Positions 21,052-25,692 of a stretch of 64,000 nucleotides of DNA are shown here, in pieces. The DNA comes from Caulobacter sp. GTDB lineage: Bacteria; Pseudomonadota; Alphaproteobacteria; Caulobacterales; Caulobacteraceae. The DNA lies in assembly GCA_016125585.1 (NCBI GenBank), contig WGLL01000011.1:310001-374000 (forward strand). Direction: 5' to 3'. The notes beneath the pieces are model-generated. The model was not told the origin of the DNA. It saw only the letters and a program-made list of their open reading frames with translations, and did no database searches. Both the position numbers and the translations under genes were made by a program. Every line of letters begins with the position of its first letter. The stretch's first letter is position 1.

Positions 21052-21897
21052 CTAGTGCGGAGGCTTGGGCGGCGCCGGCGGCTTGGGCGGAGCGGGCGAC
21101 CGGATCATCAACACCCGCCGTCCCTTGCAGATGCGGGGCGCCAGTCCGGAGGGCAGGCGGGTCTTGCTGTCGGAACAGGCCGAATTGACCTGCTGCTGCG
21201 ACAGGTTGCGGGCGCCGGACAGATCGGCGCCGGCGAGGGACGCCCCATCAAGGTCGGCGCCCCGGAAGTCGGCGCGCGAGAATTCCGACTGCATCATCTG
21301 GGCGTGGGTCAGGTCGGCGTTCTGAAAGTCCGCGTCGGAAAACTGGCTATAGATCAGCGCCGCCCCGATCAGCTCGGCGCCGCGAAAGTCGGTGCGATCG
21401 GCCGAAACCCTGGCAAGGATGGCGTGAGGCAGGTCGGCGCCGCGGAACTTGGCGCGGTCCAGTTTGGCGCGGGTGAAGTCGGCGCCGGGGAGGTCGGCGC
21501 CGTTCAGGCTGGCGCGGCTGAAGTTGGCGGAGATGAACACCGATCCGGCGCCCTCGACGCCGTCCAGCTGGGCGCCGGAGAAGTCGGCCTCGGTGAAATC
21601 GCTGCCCATCAGCTCGGCGCCGCGAAGATCGGCGTCCGACAGCCTGGCGCCGCGAAAGCTGGAGCGAACGAAGGAGGCGCCGCGCAGGTCGGCGCGGCTG
21701 AGAGACGCTCCGCTGAAGTCGGCGCTGAGGAAGCGGGCGTTGATCATCTTCTTGCCCGCCAGGTCACAGCCGCGGCAGGCGCCGCCGAAGGACACCTGCC
21801 GGGGGATGTCCCGTTCGTCGCCGATCATCTTGGCCTCGGCAGTTCCGGCAATGGCCAGCAGCGCCAGGGTCGAGAGGGTGAGTGCGAGGTTCTTCAT
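21052..21897 (-). CDS. Secreted pentapeptide-repeat protein
   Basis: A 281-residue exported protein: Sec signal peptide (to about TAEAK), an N-terminal CRGCDL motif, then about 30 pentapeptide units of the A(D/N)LxX type (e.g. SRADLRGASF, LSDADLRGAEL) that should fold as a right-handed quadrilateral beta-helix. After the repeats come the module LSQQQVNSACSD.TRLPSGL and a proline-rich tail ending PPKPPH. Its neighbour upstream on the same strand has the same architecture. Function unknown; periplasmic location inferred from the signal. Confidence 0.85.
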   Translation of the reverse strand: MKNLALTLSTLALLAIAGTAEAKMIGDERDIPRQVSFGGACRGCDLAGKKMINARFLSADFSGASLSRADLRGASFVRSSFRGARLSDADLRGAELMGSDFTEADFSGAQLDGVEGAGSVFISANFSRASLNGADLPGADFTRAKLDRAKFRGADLPHAILARVSADRTDFRGAELIGAALIYSQFSDADFQNADLTHAQMMQSEFSRADFRGADLDGASLAGADLSGARNLSQQQVNSACSDSKTRLPSGLAPRICKGRRVLMIRSPAPPKPPAPPKPPH

Positions 21898-21983: not shown

Positions 21984-22469
21984 TCAGCATTGAGGAATGC
22001 GCAGACCCGCCGGCAGACGCGTCGACAGATCGCCGCAGGCGTGATTGAGCTGGGCCTGGGTCAGGCCGACCGCGCGATCCATTTCGACGCCCGAGAAGAC
22101 GGTCCCGTTGAGCTTCGCCCCCCGGAAGTTGGCGCCCTGCAGATAGCTGCCGACGAAGTTGGCGTTGCTGAGGTCGGCGCCGGCGAAGCTGGCCCCGCCG
22201 AACACGGCGGCCGAGGCGTCGGCGTCGCGCAGATCGGCGCCGGAAAAGTTGGTCCGATTCATGACTGCCGCGGTCAGGGTCGCCTGCCGGAGCCGCGAGC
22301 GGCTGAGATTCAGACCGCGTCGTTCCAGCCCCGTCAGGTCAGCCTGGAAGAGGTTGCAGCCGGGACAACTGGCGCCGCCACGAACACGGGCGATCTGGCC
22401 GGCGTTCTGGGCCAGGGCGGGGCCTGCCAGGACGGCGATGCCGAGGGAAAGAGCGATCAGGCGTTTCAT
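21984..22469 (-). CDS. Secreted pentapeptide-repeat protein (shorter paralogue)
   Basis: A 161-residue exported protein with a signal peptide (MKRLIALSLGIAVLAGPALAQ), an N-terminal CPGCNL motif, about 14 pentapeptide units (SGADLRDAD, AGADLSNANF, GANFRGAKLN) and a C-terminal LTQAQLNHACGDLSTRLPAGL...C module. The flanking cysteine-containing modules match the 281-residue protein 86 bp downstream, so the pair probably arose by duplication with change in repeat number. The start is MKRLIAL, six codons inside the longest frame. Function unknown. Confidence 0.85.
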   Translation of the reverse strand: MKRLIALSLGIAVLAGPALAQNAGQIARVRGGASCPGCNLFQADLTGLERRGLNLSRSRLRQATLTAAVMNRTNFSGADLRDADASAAVFGGASFAGADLSNANFVGSYLQGANFRGAKLNGTVFSGVEMDRAVGLTQAQLNHACGDLSTRLPAGLRIPQC

Positions 22470-22535
22470 GACGCTACAGCCTTGCACGACGGGGGTCTTT
22501 ATCCCGTTAACGCTGCAAGCGGCGGGCCAGGAGGA

Positions 22536-25100
22536 TCAGGGCATGGCGCCCTGGTCGACGACGCCGCCGCAGGTTTCGCAAACGCCGGCGTAGACCGACT
22601 GGTCGCCGCAGGAGGGGCAGACGCTGGCCGCCCTTGGGTGGTCGATGGCGATATCGGCCGAGCGCTTGCCGAAGGGCAGGAAGACCAGATTGTCCGGCGC
22701 CGCGCCGCGGGAGAAGCCCTTGGAGATGAAGCGGCTGGCCGGTTGCGGCTCGGCCTCGAATGCCTCGCCCGGCGCCTGGGGCGCGCCGTCGGCCTTGCCG
22801 CGACCCAGACCATCGGCATTGAGCGTCTCGGCGCCGCCGCCGGCCAGGTCGTTGCGGCCCAGATAGCTGATGCCCAGTTCGCGGAAGACGTAGTCGAGGA
22901 TGGAGGTGGCCGAGCGGATGGTGTCGTTGCCGGTCACAGGGCCGGCCGGCTCGAACCGGGTAAAGACGAAGGCGTCGACGAATTCCTCAAGCGGCACGCC
23001 GTATTGCAGGCCGATGGAGATGGCGATGGCGAAGTTGTTCATCACACTGCGGAAGGCGGCGCCCTCCTTGTGCATGTCGATGAAGATCTCGCCCAGTTCG
23101 CCGTCGTCGTATTCGCCGGTGTGCAGGTAGACCTTGTGACCGCCGACGGCTGCCTTCTGGATGTAGCCCTTGCGGCGGTCGGGCAGTTTGCGGCGGGTTC
23201 GGTCGCGCTCGACCACCCGTTCGATGATCCGCTCCTGAACCGGCGGCTCCGTCGTGCGGGCGGGTTCGGAAGCGGGTTCTTCGGCCAGGTTGAGACTGAA
23301 GTCCCGCGGCGGCGCGACGCGGTCCAGCCGCAGGGTGCGAACCCCCGCCGCCAGGGCCTGAGCCTGCAGCAGCACCGCTTCCGACGGCAGGGCGGCGAAA
23401 GTCATCGCCAGGGGCAGGTCAGCCGGACCGCCACAGACATCCTCGATGGCGGCGTGCATTGCCAGCCTGGCCGACAGGGGCTGTTCCGGATCAAGGATCG
23501 CCCGCAATCCGGCCGAAATGTCGCTGACCCGATCGAGCCTGTCATCGCCGAGAATGTGACGCTCGGCCTCGGCCACCTGGGCGGCGGAGAAGCCGGCGAG
23601 GGCCAGGGTGTCGAAGTCCGGCTCGGCCAGTTGTTCGGCCGAGGCGCCGAGCACGTCGCGCAGGAATCCGTCGCCGATAACCAGGGGACTGAAGGCGTCG
23701 GGAAGGCGGCTGACCAGCGGCAGGACGGACTGGGCCGCCTCCAGCTCCAGCACCGTGAAGCCCAGGGCCGACAGGCTGGCCGTGTTGATGTGCGGCGCCT
23801 CATCGAAGTCGCGATGGCCGGTCAGGGCCAGGCGCAGGACGTCGGGGTCCTCGCCCAGCTGGCGACAGGCTTCCAGGGCTGGGGCGGCGATGACCCGGAT
23901 GATCTCGCCATCACCCGTCTCCGCCAGCGTGCCCGGACCCTGCCATGGACCGGCGCCCAGGCCGGCCCCGCCAAGCCGCAAGGACAGTTCGGCATGCTCG
24001 ATGGGCGCGACATCGGCCAGATTGCCGGCGGCGGTGACCGCCCGGCTCCACAGGTCGGCGGCGACGGCGCGGGCCTCCTCGCTGTCGTAGGCAAGCCCCC
24101 GGGCGACCAGCAGGCCGGCGGTATTGGCCAGGGCGAGGGTCGCCGGCCCGTCCGGTCCAGCCTCAAGCCGCAGGGCGGTGGCGGTGAGGCGAGCGGCTGC
24201 CTCGATGCCGGCGGTGTCGATGCTCCCGTCGGTCAGATAGGTCATCAGGTCGATGGCGGCGACCGGGCCGGTCGGGCGGGAAGCGAGGGCGGCGGCGTCC
24301 GCGGCGGTCAGGGCCAGGGTCGCGGAGCCCGTGCGCCATCCGAGGGCGGCCAGTTCCCGCTCGCGGCCGGAAGGGCCGTCCTCGGGGAGGAGAATGATGC
24401 AGGCGGGGCGCGCGCTGGTCTCCGGCGGCGGCAGGGTGTCGGACAGGCCGCAGAGGCCGGCGCCGATGGCGTTGCGGATCGCCGCGTCGCTGGCCCCGGC
24501 GGCGCGGGCGGCGCGGGCCATGCGAGCCAGGGCGGGATTGGCGGAAGGATCGCCGCAGGCGGCGGCATCGCCCTCGCATCGACGGACGGCGTCGCTGACC
24601 GCCGCCAACCGTTCGCCGAGGGTTCGCATTGCCGGGCCGGCAAGATCGTGGGCCGAAACCTCCGCGGCAAAGGCCTGGAGACGGGCCGAGGCGCCCGGAG
24701 CCGCAAGATCGATGATGGGCAGGGGCGCGGGGCGGGTCGGCGCCGCGAAGGCGATCACCCCATGGCTGAGCAGGCTGTAGAGTTCGTCGCGGAAGGCGCC
24801 GGCGTCCCCGGGGCGGGCGAACAGGCCGCTGGTCCAGCCGCGCTGCGCCAGATCCTGCGCCTTCCGGGCCGGGCCACCGCCCAGGAGACCGGTGGGGCTG
24901 AAGGGCTGCCGCAGGACATTGGGCAGGTCCTTGACGGCCTCCGGCTCGGCCAGCCTGTCGGCCCAGTCGAGCCAGGCCTGCACCCTGGCGTCGGACCAGG
25001 CGCACGGGGCCAGGACTCCCCGCAGGGCGTCCGCGCCCTCGAGGGTGCGGAGCTCAACCTCCGGCCCGGCGCCCTTGGCCCTTCGCCGTTCAAAACGCAT
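22536..25100 (-). CDS. Class II ribonucleotide reductase-like protein (TSCPD domain), probably not an RNR
   Basis: An 854-residue protein. Residues about 637-755 are a full TSCPD domain closely resembling the C-terminal part of alphaproteobacterial NrdJ ([60 protein letters not shown]), and the tail has CPSC...CETC like the NrdJ redox tail. The first 600 residues look like an eroded reductase barrel: weak echoes near [16 protein letters not shown] (503-518) and [11 protein letters not shown] (548-558). No NPCGE-type active site, substrate-binding GTG loop or paired catalytic cysteines are present. I infer an RNR-derived protein with lost catalysis. It is followed on the same strand by two pentapeptide-repeat genes. 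Confidence 0.75.
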
Positions 25101-25278
25101 GCGAGACTTCGCTCCAACCCAACGGGGGCAGGGTAGGGGGTGGGGCCGCCTCGATCAATAGATGATGGGGGTCGCGGGCCTTCCATCCACAAGATGTGGT
25201 GGCCAGGCCAAAATACGTCCGACGCTTTCCCTTTGGCGCTCGCCCCTCTATTGTCCCGGCGCATAAACCCCTTAGCGG

Positions 25279-25692
25279 ATGACGGATTCTCGCGTGCTCA
25301 AAGCGATCTTCACCTGGTGGAACGGCGTCACTCTTGGCCAGCGCATGCACATCGCGCGCCGGGGCGTGAAGGTGGGCCAGGACGACTATGGCAACACCTA
25401 CTATGAGGCGCGCGACGACAAGGACAGCTATGACGTCGGCCGCAAGCGGCGCTGGGTGATCTACAGCGGCTATGCCGAAGCTTCCAAGGTGCCGCCCGAA
25501 TGGCACGGCTGGCTGCGCTATACCTTTGACGAACCGCCGACGATTGCGCCGCTGCTGCGCCGGTCGTGGGAGAAGGATCATCTGCCCAATCTGACCGGGA
25601 CCGTGCACGCCTGGCGGCCCAAGGGCTCGATCGCCGGCGCCGGCCAGCGGGACGCTGCGACCGGAGACTATCTGCCCTGGACTCCGGAATAG
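25279..25692 (+). CDS. NADH:ubiquinone oxidoreductase subunit NDUFA12
   Basis: Supernumerary complex I subunit found in alphaproteobacteria and mitochondria. The 137-residue protein has the family pattern: FTWWNGVTLG, VGQDDYGNTYYE, KRRWVIYSG, PPEWHGWLRY and a C-terminal YLPWTPE. The ATG at MTDSRVLKAIF is used, but a GTG five codons in (VLKAIFTWW) would give the commoner N terminus. It is followed four bases later by the DUF2155 gene. Confidence 0.92.
   Translation: MTDSRVLKAIFTWWNGVTLGQRMHIARRGVKVGQDDYGNTYYEARDDKDSYDVGRKRRWVIYSGYAEASKVPPEWHGWLRYTFDEPPTIAPLLRRSWEKDHLPNLTGTVHAWRPKGSIAGAGQRDAATGDYLPWTPE

Follow-up and report, generated by a model that had tools for sequence, protein, structure and literature searches.

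A 64,000-nucleotide stretch of the Caulobacter sp. contig WGLL01000011.1 (the window) carries an ortholog of nrdJ, the gene of the class II ribonucleotide reductase (RNR), whose product has lost the residues of catalysis and is maintained by selection. The protein is a pseudoenzyme, as a predicted RNR fold, the absence of the catalytic residues and purifying selection come together in it, and its gene is referred to here as pseudo-nrdJ. It has probably been retained for a non-catalytic function of its TSCPD domain and zinc ribbon in deoxyribonucleoside triphosphate (dNTP) metabolism under NrdR control. The initial annotation, made from the letters of the window, had proposed a neofunctionalised pseudo-reductase, and that reading stands on the predicted fold, the missing catalytic residues, the purifying selection and the order-wide conservation. 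Relatives that share the losses are called dead-type below, and nrdJ genes with the catalytic motifs are called live. The gene and the parts of its product lie as follows.

22536..25100, minus strand: pseudo-nrdJ, catalytically dead class II RNR ortholog, 854 amino acids (open reading frame, NF005736, profile homology, synteny)
23301..25100, minus strand: residues 1-600, RNR barrel, decayed but folded by prediction (profile homology, predicted fold, alignment with the live gene L037)
22833..23195, minus strand: residues 636-756, TSCPD (IscU-like) domain, strongly conserved
22683..22736, minus strand: residues 789-806, conserved segment linking the TSCPD domain and the zinc ribbon
22557..22628, minus strand: residues 825-848, zinc ribbon with CxxC (828, 831) and CxxC (841, 844), without the redox-pair cysteines

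Barrel fold and catalytic residues

The start codon is supported by alignment with a live NrdJ (L045), whose MRIERR pairs with MRFERR of the window protein. Among Pfam families, TSCPD alone exceeded its cut-off on the 854-residue protein (38.7 bits, residues 652-742), and the NCBIfam NrdJ equivalog NF005736 matched with an E-value of 7.5e-103 and scored 345 bits where the cut-off is 1737; the C-terminal part is thus NrdJ-like, as had been read from the sequence at first. A phmmer search of the Protein Data Bank (PDB) reached the class II RNR entries 7b9p/7b9q, with the best stretch at 409-551 on 717-859 and weaker collinear stretches preceding it. For the N-terminal 600 residues, in which the initial annotation had seen only eroded echoes of the barrel, a profile of the window protein and 27 dead-type relatives was compared with one of 26 live NrdJs, each set having been aligned separately. 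At full length 730 columns aligned (E about 5e-164). When both profiles were trimmed near the barrel end, so that TSCPD could not drive the match, a collinear alignment of 479 columns remained at E 2.4e-63, with all controls, five column-shuffled and one reversed, at E of at least 0.32, and the echoes are true homology.

Structure prediction pointed the same way. The AlphaFold2 model has a mean predicted local distance difference test (pLDDT) score of 77.4 and a predicted template modeling (pTM) score of 0.67, with most ten-residue blocks in residues 70-600 above 90 pLDDT and a poorly predicted C-terminal module. Its top Foldseek match in the PDB is the R. sphaeroides class II RNR (E 5.2e-20), with T. 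maritima NrdJ and the large subunits of class I enzymes ranking next, while VIA-align returned T. maritima NrdJ (1xjn_C, Z 20.1, 379 residues, 3.8 A) and human R1 (2wgh_A, Z 22.0, 355 residues, 3.8 A), the RNR matches at Z of about 20 spanning residues 5-598. As both programs returned RNRs, a fold unrelated to RNR barrels, which would have told against the initial annotation, did not emerge. Residues 5-598 are accordingly modeled as keeping the RNR barrel fold, and fold and sequence homology together place the protein in the RNR fold superfamily.

What the barrel has lost is its chemistry. Eight stretches of at least 12 residues in live L037 have no counterpart in the window protein, the largest being 136-255 and 564-643; the former holds the first active-site cysteine (HACFIQS) and KYGSGSGSNF, and a further gap at 436-454 removes the NPC of NPCSE. 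The same pattern was seen among 55 aligned genes, 47 dead-type (the window gene included) and 8 live-type. The radical-cysteine motif NxCxE is present in 8/8 live-type genes, as NPCSE, and in 0/47 dead-type genes; the first active-site cysteine column is gapped or occupied by another residue in all 47; the second is not conserved, an isolated cysteine at or near the column being found in L040, L054 and L055 only; and no APTGTIGL (phosphate) loop is left in any of the 47. The early observation that NPCGE, the substrate loop and the paired active-site cysteines are missing was therefore correct, as NxCxE, the HACF cysteine and the APTGT loop are all absent.

The tail had been described as an intact redox tail, and this part of the initial annotation has to be given up. 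Cysteine roles were assigned after the sections of PMC5704485 drawn on here, in which S. nassauensis Cys-920, -923, -936 and -939 are proposed as zinc ligands and Cys-933 and -945 as the redox pair. By alignment, live NrdJ has six tail cysteines and the dead type retains the four zinc ligands without the redox two, so that CPSC...CETC would be a zinc site only. Across 153 gene records, 145 of them uncut by the record end, a four-cysteine tail goes with the absence of NxCxE in 82 and a six-cysteine tail with its presence in 62, and the one remaining, L096, has a six-cysteine tail on a short frame; merging identical genes gives 80, 62 and 1. All four zinc cysteines are kept in each of the 82. 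This co-loss indicates that radical chemistry and electron delivery went together and that the structural zinc site stayed.

As an enzyme, then, the protein is not an NrdJ by its sequence, which has no radical cysteine motif, active-site cysteine pair or redox tail pair. An unrecognised reductase, or another enzyme using different barrel residues, would be in keeping with the retained (predicted) barrel fold and with purifying selection, but is very unlikely given the loss of the radical cysteine, the phosphate loop and the redox pair, and because nearly all invariant positions in alignments of the dead type belong to the TSCPD domain and tail (two barrel positions are invariant in a 36-sequence alignment and four in a 28-sequence alignment).

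The C-terminal module gave few structural leads. A PDB profile search with it returned weak ribosomal zinc-ribbon matches only (E at least 0.16). For the TSCPD fold, the best Foldseek E-value was 0.16, with IscU/SufU at about 1; the VIA-align rows for IscU/SufU (Z 3.3-5.0) were level with other folds, lipoate ligases, PUR-alpha and NADH peroxidase being near-equal in Z. Long class II C-termini were described in 2022 as an IscU-like domain plus a zinc finger, the role of the former being given as unreported in the part of PMC9669993 consulted.

Locus, reductase complement and distribution

The surroundings of pseudo-nrdJ bear on its descent. Three neighbors matter here.

25279..25692, plus strand: NDUFA12, divergent neighbor and synteny anchor, followed by DUF2155, aat and accC
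21984..22487, minus strand: pentapeptide-repeat protein, downstream neighbor
21052..21897, minus strand: second pentapeptide-repeat protein, downstream neighbor

The block accC-aat-DUF2155-NDUFA12 adjoins most dead-type genes with a long enough flank, and also stands beside many live nrdJ genes in other Alphaproteobacteria (e.g., L093, L103, L113, L131, L135 and L143); the other live nrdJ genes have none of the four inside the fetched flank. A neighborhood common to the dead and many live forms supports orthology, and places the window gene at the ancestral nrdJ locus as the nrdJ ortholog itself. The two pentapeptide-repeat genes are adjacent, lie on the same strand and have signal-peptide-like starts. 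Such genes come after many dead and live genes in Caulobacterales. In related families several live nrdJ genes are followed by them as well, and this linkage may therefore predate the loss of catalysis.

The genome of the window has one TSCPD match only, pseudo-nrdJ, and PF02867 finds a single barrel in it, that of the class I NrdA, which contains NLCSE and has a CxxC at its C-terminus; NrdB and NrdR are also encoded. The search for a complete nrdJ, which the initial annotation had called for, thus ended in class I NrdAB only, and its suggestion that the protein regulates or partners a real NrdJ through TSCPD lost its object, the gene being the nrdJ ortholog. TSCPD is conserved as in live NrdJ, which is what such a partner would need; nevertheless, with no live NrdJ and no other TSCPD match in this genome, and no second TSCPD gene by match counts, among the matches listed, in the 35 genomes described below that have full-length NrdJ, the proposal is hardly credible in general and is rejected here.

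A C-terminal subunit of a split enzyme, similar to NrdJb, with the catalytic chain elsewhere, was considered as well. A census of 61 Caulobacterales genomes (this one and 60 others) found NrdA-type barrels in 61/61 and NrdB (PF00268) in 61/61, the match being weak in G044, and a separate compact class II RNR in 11/61 (G003, G025-G029, G033, G036, G037, G043 and G053), which could in principle supply that chain. However, the compact enzymes have their own equipment, as eight of the eleven were fetched (L062-L069) and show NPCGE in 8/8 and their own multi-cysteine tail in 7/8 open frames. The redox pair required for electron delivery is lost from pseudo-nrdJ, and no catalytic NrdJa chain was found in its own genome, where PF02867 gives NrdA only and NrdA has its own terminal CxxC. 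A split enzyme is rejected for this genome and has a very low probability overall. An Rfam scan of the window at the gathering threshold, read for a cobalamin riboswitch, gave a tRNA only.

The initial annotation had also asked whether the gene is conserved across Caulobacterales, and it is. In a census with NF005736 of 150 genomes at completeness of at least 90%, a full-length live-type nrdJ was found in 35 (29 over the cut-off and 6 at 1622-1728 bits) and the dead form in 106, assigned by score as a TSCPD-bearing match of 194-407 bits; sequences were read for part of the 106, all of those without NxCxE. The named loci of Caulobacter, Phenylobacterium, Brevundimonas, Maricaulis, Marinicauda and Hyphomonadaceae are of the dead form; live ones come from Robiginitomaculum (L090, and a second, the short frame L096) and from other orders. 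An rpoB tree with 30 genomes of the order and 23 outgroup rows requires two changes for the dead state, so this outcome may have arisen twice, and in a tree of the TSCPD genes a single dead clade is not rejected (approximately unbiased test, p-AU 0.647); one and two origins are both compatible with the trees. A phage search gave partial matches in 5 records. One of these, L240 (LR745208.1, an uncultured 485-kb phage), encodes a class II RNR of live type in a frame of 980 amino acids, and its six-cysteine tail ends in GCS.

Selection, NrdR-type boxes and possible function

The two halves of the protein have evolved very differently. Mean barrel identity is 24% between dead and live Caulobacterales proteins and 23% between dead and other live proteins, against 59-66% among live ones, and in TSCPD the corresponding values are 84%, 79% and 81-84%, so the barrel has relaxed after the loss of catalysis and TSCPD has not. 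The ratio of nonsynonymous to synonymous substitution rates (dN/dS) in 18 dead-type pairs is 0.03-0.46 for barrel parts and 0-0.10 for TSCPD, the low ends being rough because some dS values are high; two live pairs gave 0.14-0.19 and 0.01-0.03. The dead-type gene is under purifying selection.

Upstream of the gene are two boxes of NrdR type.

25187..25202, minus strand: NrdR-type box 1, CCACCACATCTTGTGG, upstream of pseudo-nrdJ
25155..25170, minus strand: NrdR-type box 2, CCCCATCATCTATTGA, upstream of pseudo-nrdJ

They are 32 bp apart from start to start, with a 16-bp spacer. According to the portion of PMC12051234 used here, the usual NrdR site consists of two boxes 15-16 bp apart, both of which E. 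coli requires for tight binding. Box 1 is the sole zero-mismatch place of the box pattern in the genome, in part by construction, because the pattern was written with the window site in view; with up to 2 mismatches there are 14 places against 204 for a reversed control pattern, so places at that level carry no meaning. More telling are the counts across loci, which are related and hence not independent. Among 51 dead loci of Caulobacteraceae type (some titled Caulobacterales only, and L017 and L074 being one gene), a pair at 31/32 bp was found in 44, with 12 at 34/35, 0-2 at nine other spacings and 0 in shuffles. Upstream of live nrdJ the pair is present in 24/58, against 0-5 at other spacings. 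In 32 alignable loci, or 22 after rows at least 80% alike were dropped, both boxes have 1.6-1.7 bits per column, values inflated because rows were selected by box score, and the spacer and flanks 0.2-0.5. Upstream of nrdA in the window's genome, the pair at 32 scores 1.62, as does the best pair at 34, and over this nrdA and those of 18 relatives the best 31/32 pair falls at about the same place in 19/19 (scores 1.42-1.62). With two boxes at the usual distance and NrdR encoded in the genome, control by NrdR is predicted. The LexA box GTTC-N7-GTTC was found in 0/131 upstream regions, dead and live pooled.

An active site lost from a gene so carefully preserved suggests a second job for one small domain. 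With class I NrdAB available for nucleotide reduction, a vertically inherited nrdJ would have become a pseudoenzyme, although the order of events is our reconstruction. The TSCPD domain and zinc ribbon would have had a reduction-independent function already in live NrdJ, and the barrel may now serve as their scaffold. The protein might come into play during adjustment of the dNTP supply, its most likely mode being the binding of a conserved partner or ligand, and its dose in Caulobacteraceae would track dNTP status through NrdR. That the module represents an ancient second function outliving its enzyme, e.g., the binding or adjusting of NrdAB or of other dNTP or replication machinery, is put forward tentatively, at somewhat less than an even chance. 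The explanation is least secure about which partner is bound, and NrdAB in that role is a slightly more doubtful guess still. If the account is true, most Caulobacterales let the reductase die and kept the module at the conservation of the live enzyme, in Caulobacteraceae under NrdR control.

Several observations weigh against this reading. The Foldseek match of the model to 7b9p has a TM score of just 0.46/0.44, and the fold match of TSCPD is weak, with Z at most 6. Pairs that include the window gene have barrel dN/dS of 0.36-0.45, at the high end and above the live 0.14-0.19, so the barrel is relaxed. Neither form was apparent in 9/150 genomes (by best E-values, among the matches listed), so pseudo-nrdJ seems dispensable somewhere; all six genomes of one genus in the census (G051, G055, G059, G132, G142 and G151) seem to have neither form, judged from the matches listed, which makes the genus a natural knockout for comparison. 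These raised ratios and apparent absences, together with the vanished active site, a barrel identity of about 24% with live NrdJ and the short frames in some rows (344 amino acids in G116 and 574 in G125), are what a functionless nrdJ relic awaiting deletion would leave. Such a relic is nonetheless highly improbable, as most rows have long open frames, dN/dS stays below 0.5 in the barrel and at 0-0.10 in TSCPD, the zinc cysteines persist in 82/82 records and the box pair in 44/51 loci, and the predicted fold is of high confidence.

The boxes raise difficulties of their own. The NrdR consensus was in part general background and in part drawn from sites in these data, and the pair occurs in 0/18 dead-type loci beyond the Caulobacteraceae group. 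For nrdA, a cut-off of 1.55 is passed by 8/19 at 31/32 and by 5 at 34/35, and no pair passes it at nine other spacings; upstream of nrdB in the window's own genome no clear box pair was seen. The window pair lies between divergent genes and so could act on NDUFA12, and both the binding of a partner or ligand and NrdR control are steps that we infer. A pseudo-reductase recruited outside dNTP metabolism, with boxes that serve NDUFA12 or are left over, would agree with the absence of the pair from those 18 loci and with the divergent NDUFA12. The same type of pair is, however, found upstream of 24/58 live nrdJ genes, several without NDUFA12 in reach, and this alternative is considered unlikely. 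Retention of pseudo-nrdJ within dNTP metabolism remains the preferred reading.

Caulobacter crescentus and known systems

The findings affect the naming of genes in a model organism. A B12 figure legend of PMC6538847 places CCNA_01966 of C. crescentus under nucleotide reduction with the name NrdJ, and the gene is called a vitamin B12-dependent RNR in a passage of PMC5869019, where a 50-base stretch in it is given as 11.3-fold enriched with the stress small RNA GsrN and flagged (-, I, A). Judged from its relatives rather than its own sequence, CCNA_01966 is probably dead-type. All Caulobacter-genus genes read lack NxCxE, and a metagenome-assembled genome deposited as C. vibrioides (L079) encodes an 884-residue protein with TSCPD as the sole Pfam match. 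The C. vibrioides control genome has a TSCPD match and none over the NrdJ cut-off, which no control genome exceeded; PF08471 has no match in C. vibrioides nor in any control genome, yet two live NrdJs match it (9.8e-23 and 1e-44). No published description of a dead NrdJ in Caulobacterales was found in titles and abstract openings of the open-licence literature. "Vitamin B12-dependent ribonucleotide reductase" labels in this order may thus denote a protein unable to reduce nucleotides, very probably including CCNA_01966, which matters for models of B12 and dNTP metabolism. In these bacteria the TSCPD (IscU-like) domain has been separated from catalysis in nature, so its role becomes testable in C. 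crescentus.

Among known systems, the closest in descent is the alphaproteobacterial NrdJ (NF005736/PRK07562; 7b9p/7b9q of R. sphaeroides), with which the window protein shares the locus, collinear sequence, the predicted barrel, TSCPD, the ISKGF segment and the zinc ribbon. It differs in having no radical cysteine motif, first active-site cysteine, phosphate loop or redox cysteine pair, and is roughly 330-420 residues shorter than the products of the live nrdJ genes compared. In the sections of PMC5704485 drawn on, the C-terminal domain of S. nassauensis NrdJd has four zinc cysteines whose arrangement matches that of the window family, but also the electron-delivering pair Cys-933/Cys-945, which is absent here. 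Long class II C-termini, as described in the part of PMC9669993 consulted, have the same pairing of IscU-like domain and zinc finger, and in pseudo-nrdJ that pairing persists without a live reductase. The closest precedent comes from cytomegalovirus, whose UL45 and M45 are presented in the portion of PMC5469499 used as inactive R1 homologs with protein-binding roles; those proteins are viral and act on host signaling, whereas the window gene is a bacterial chromosomal nrdJ ortholog.
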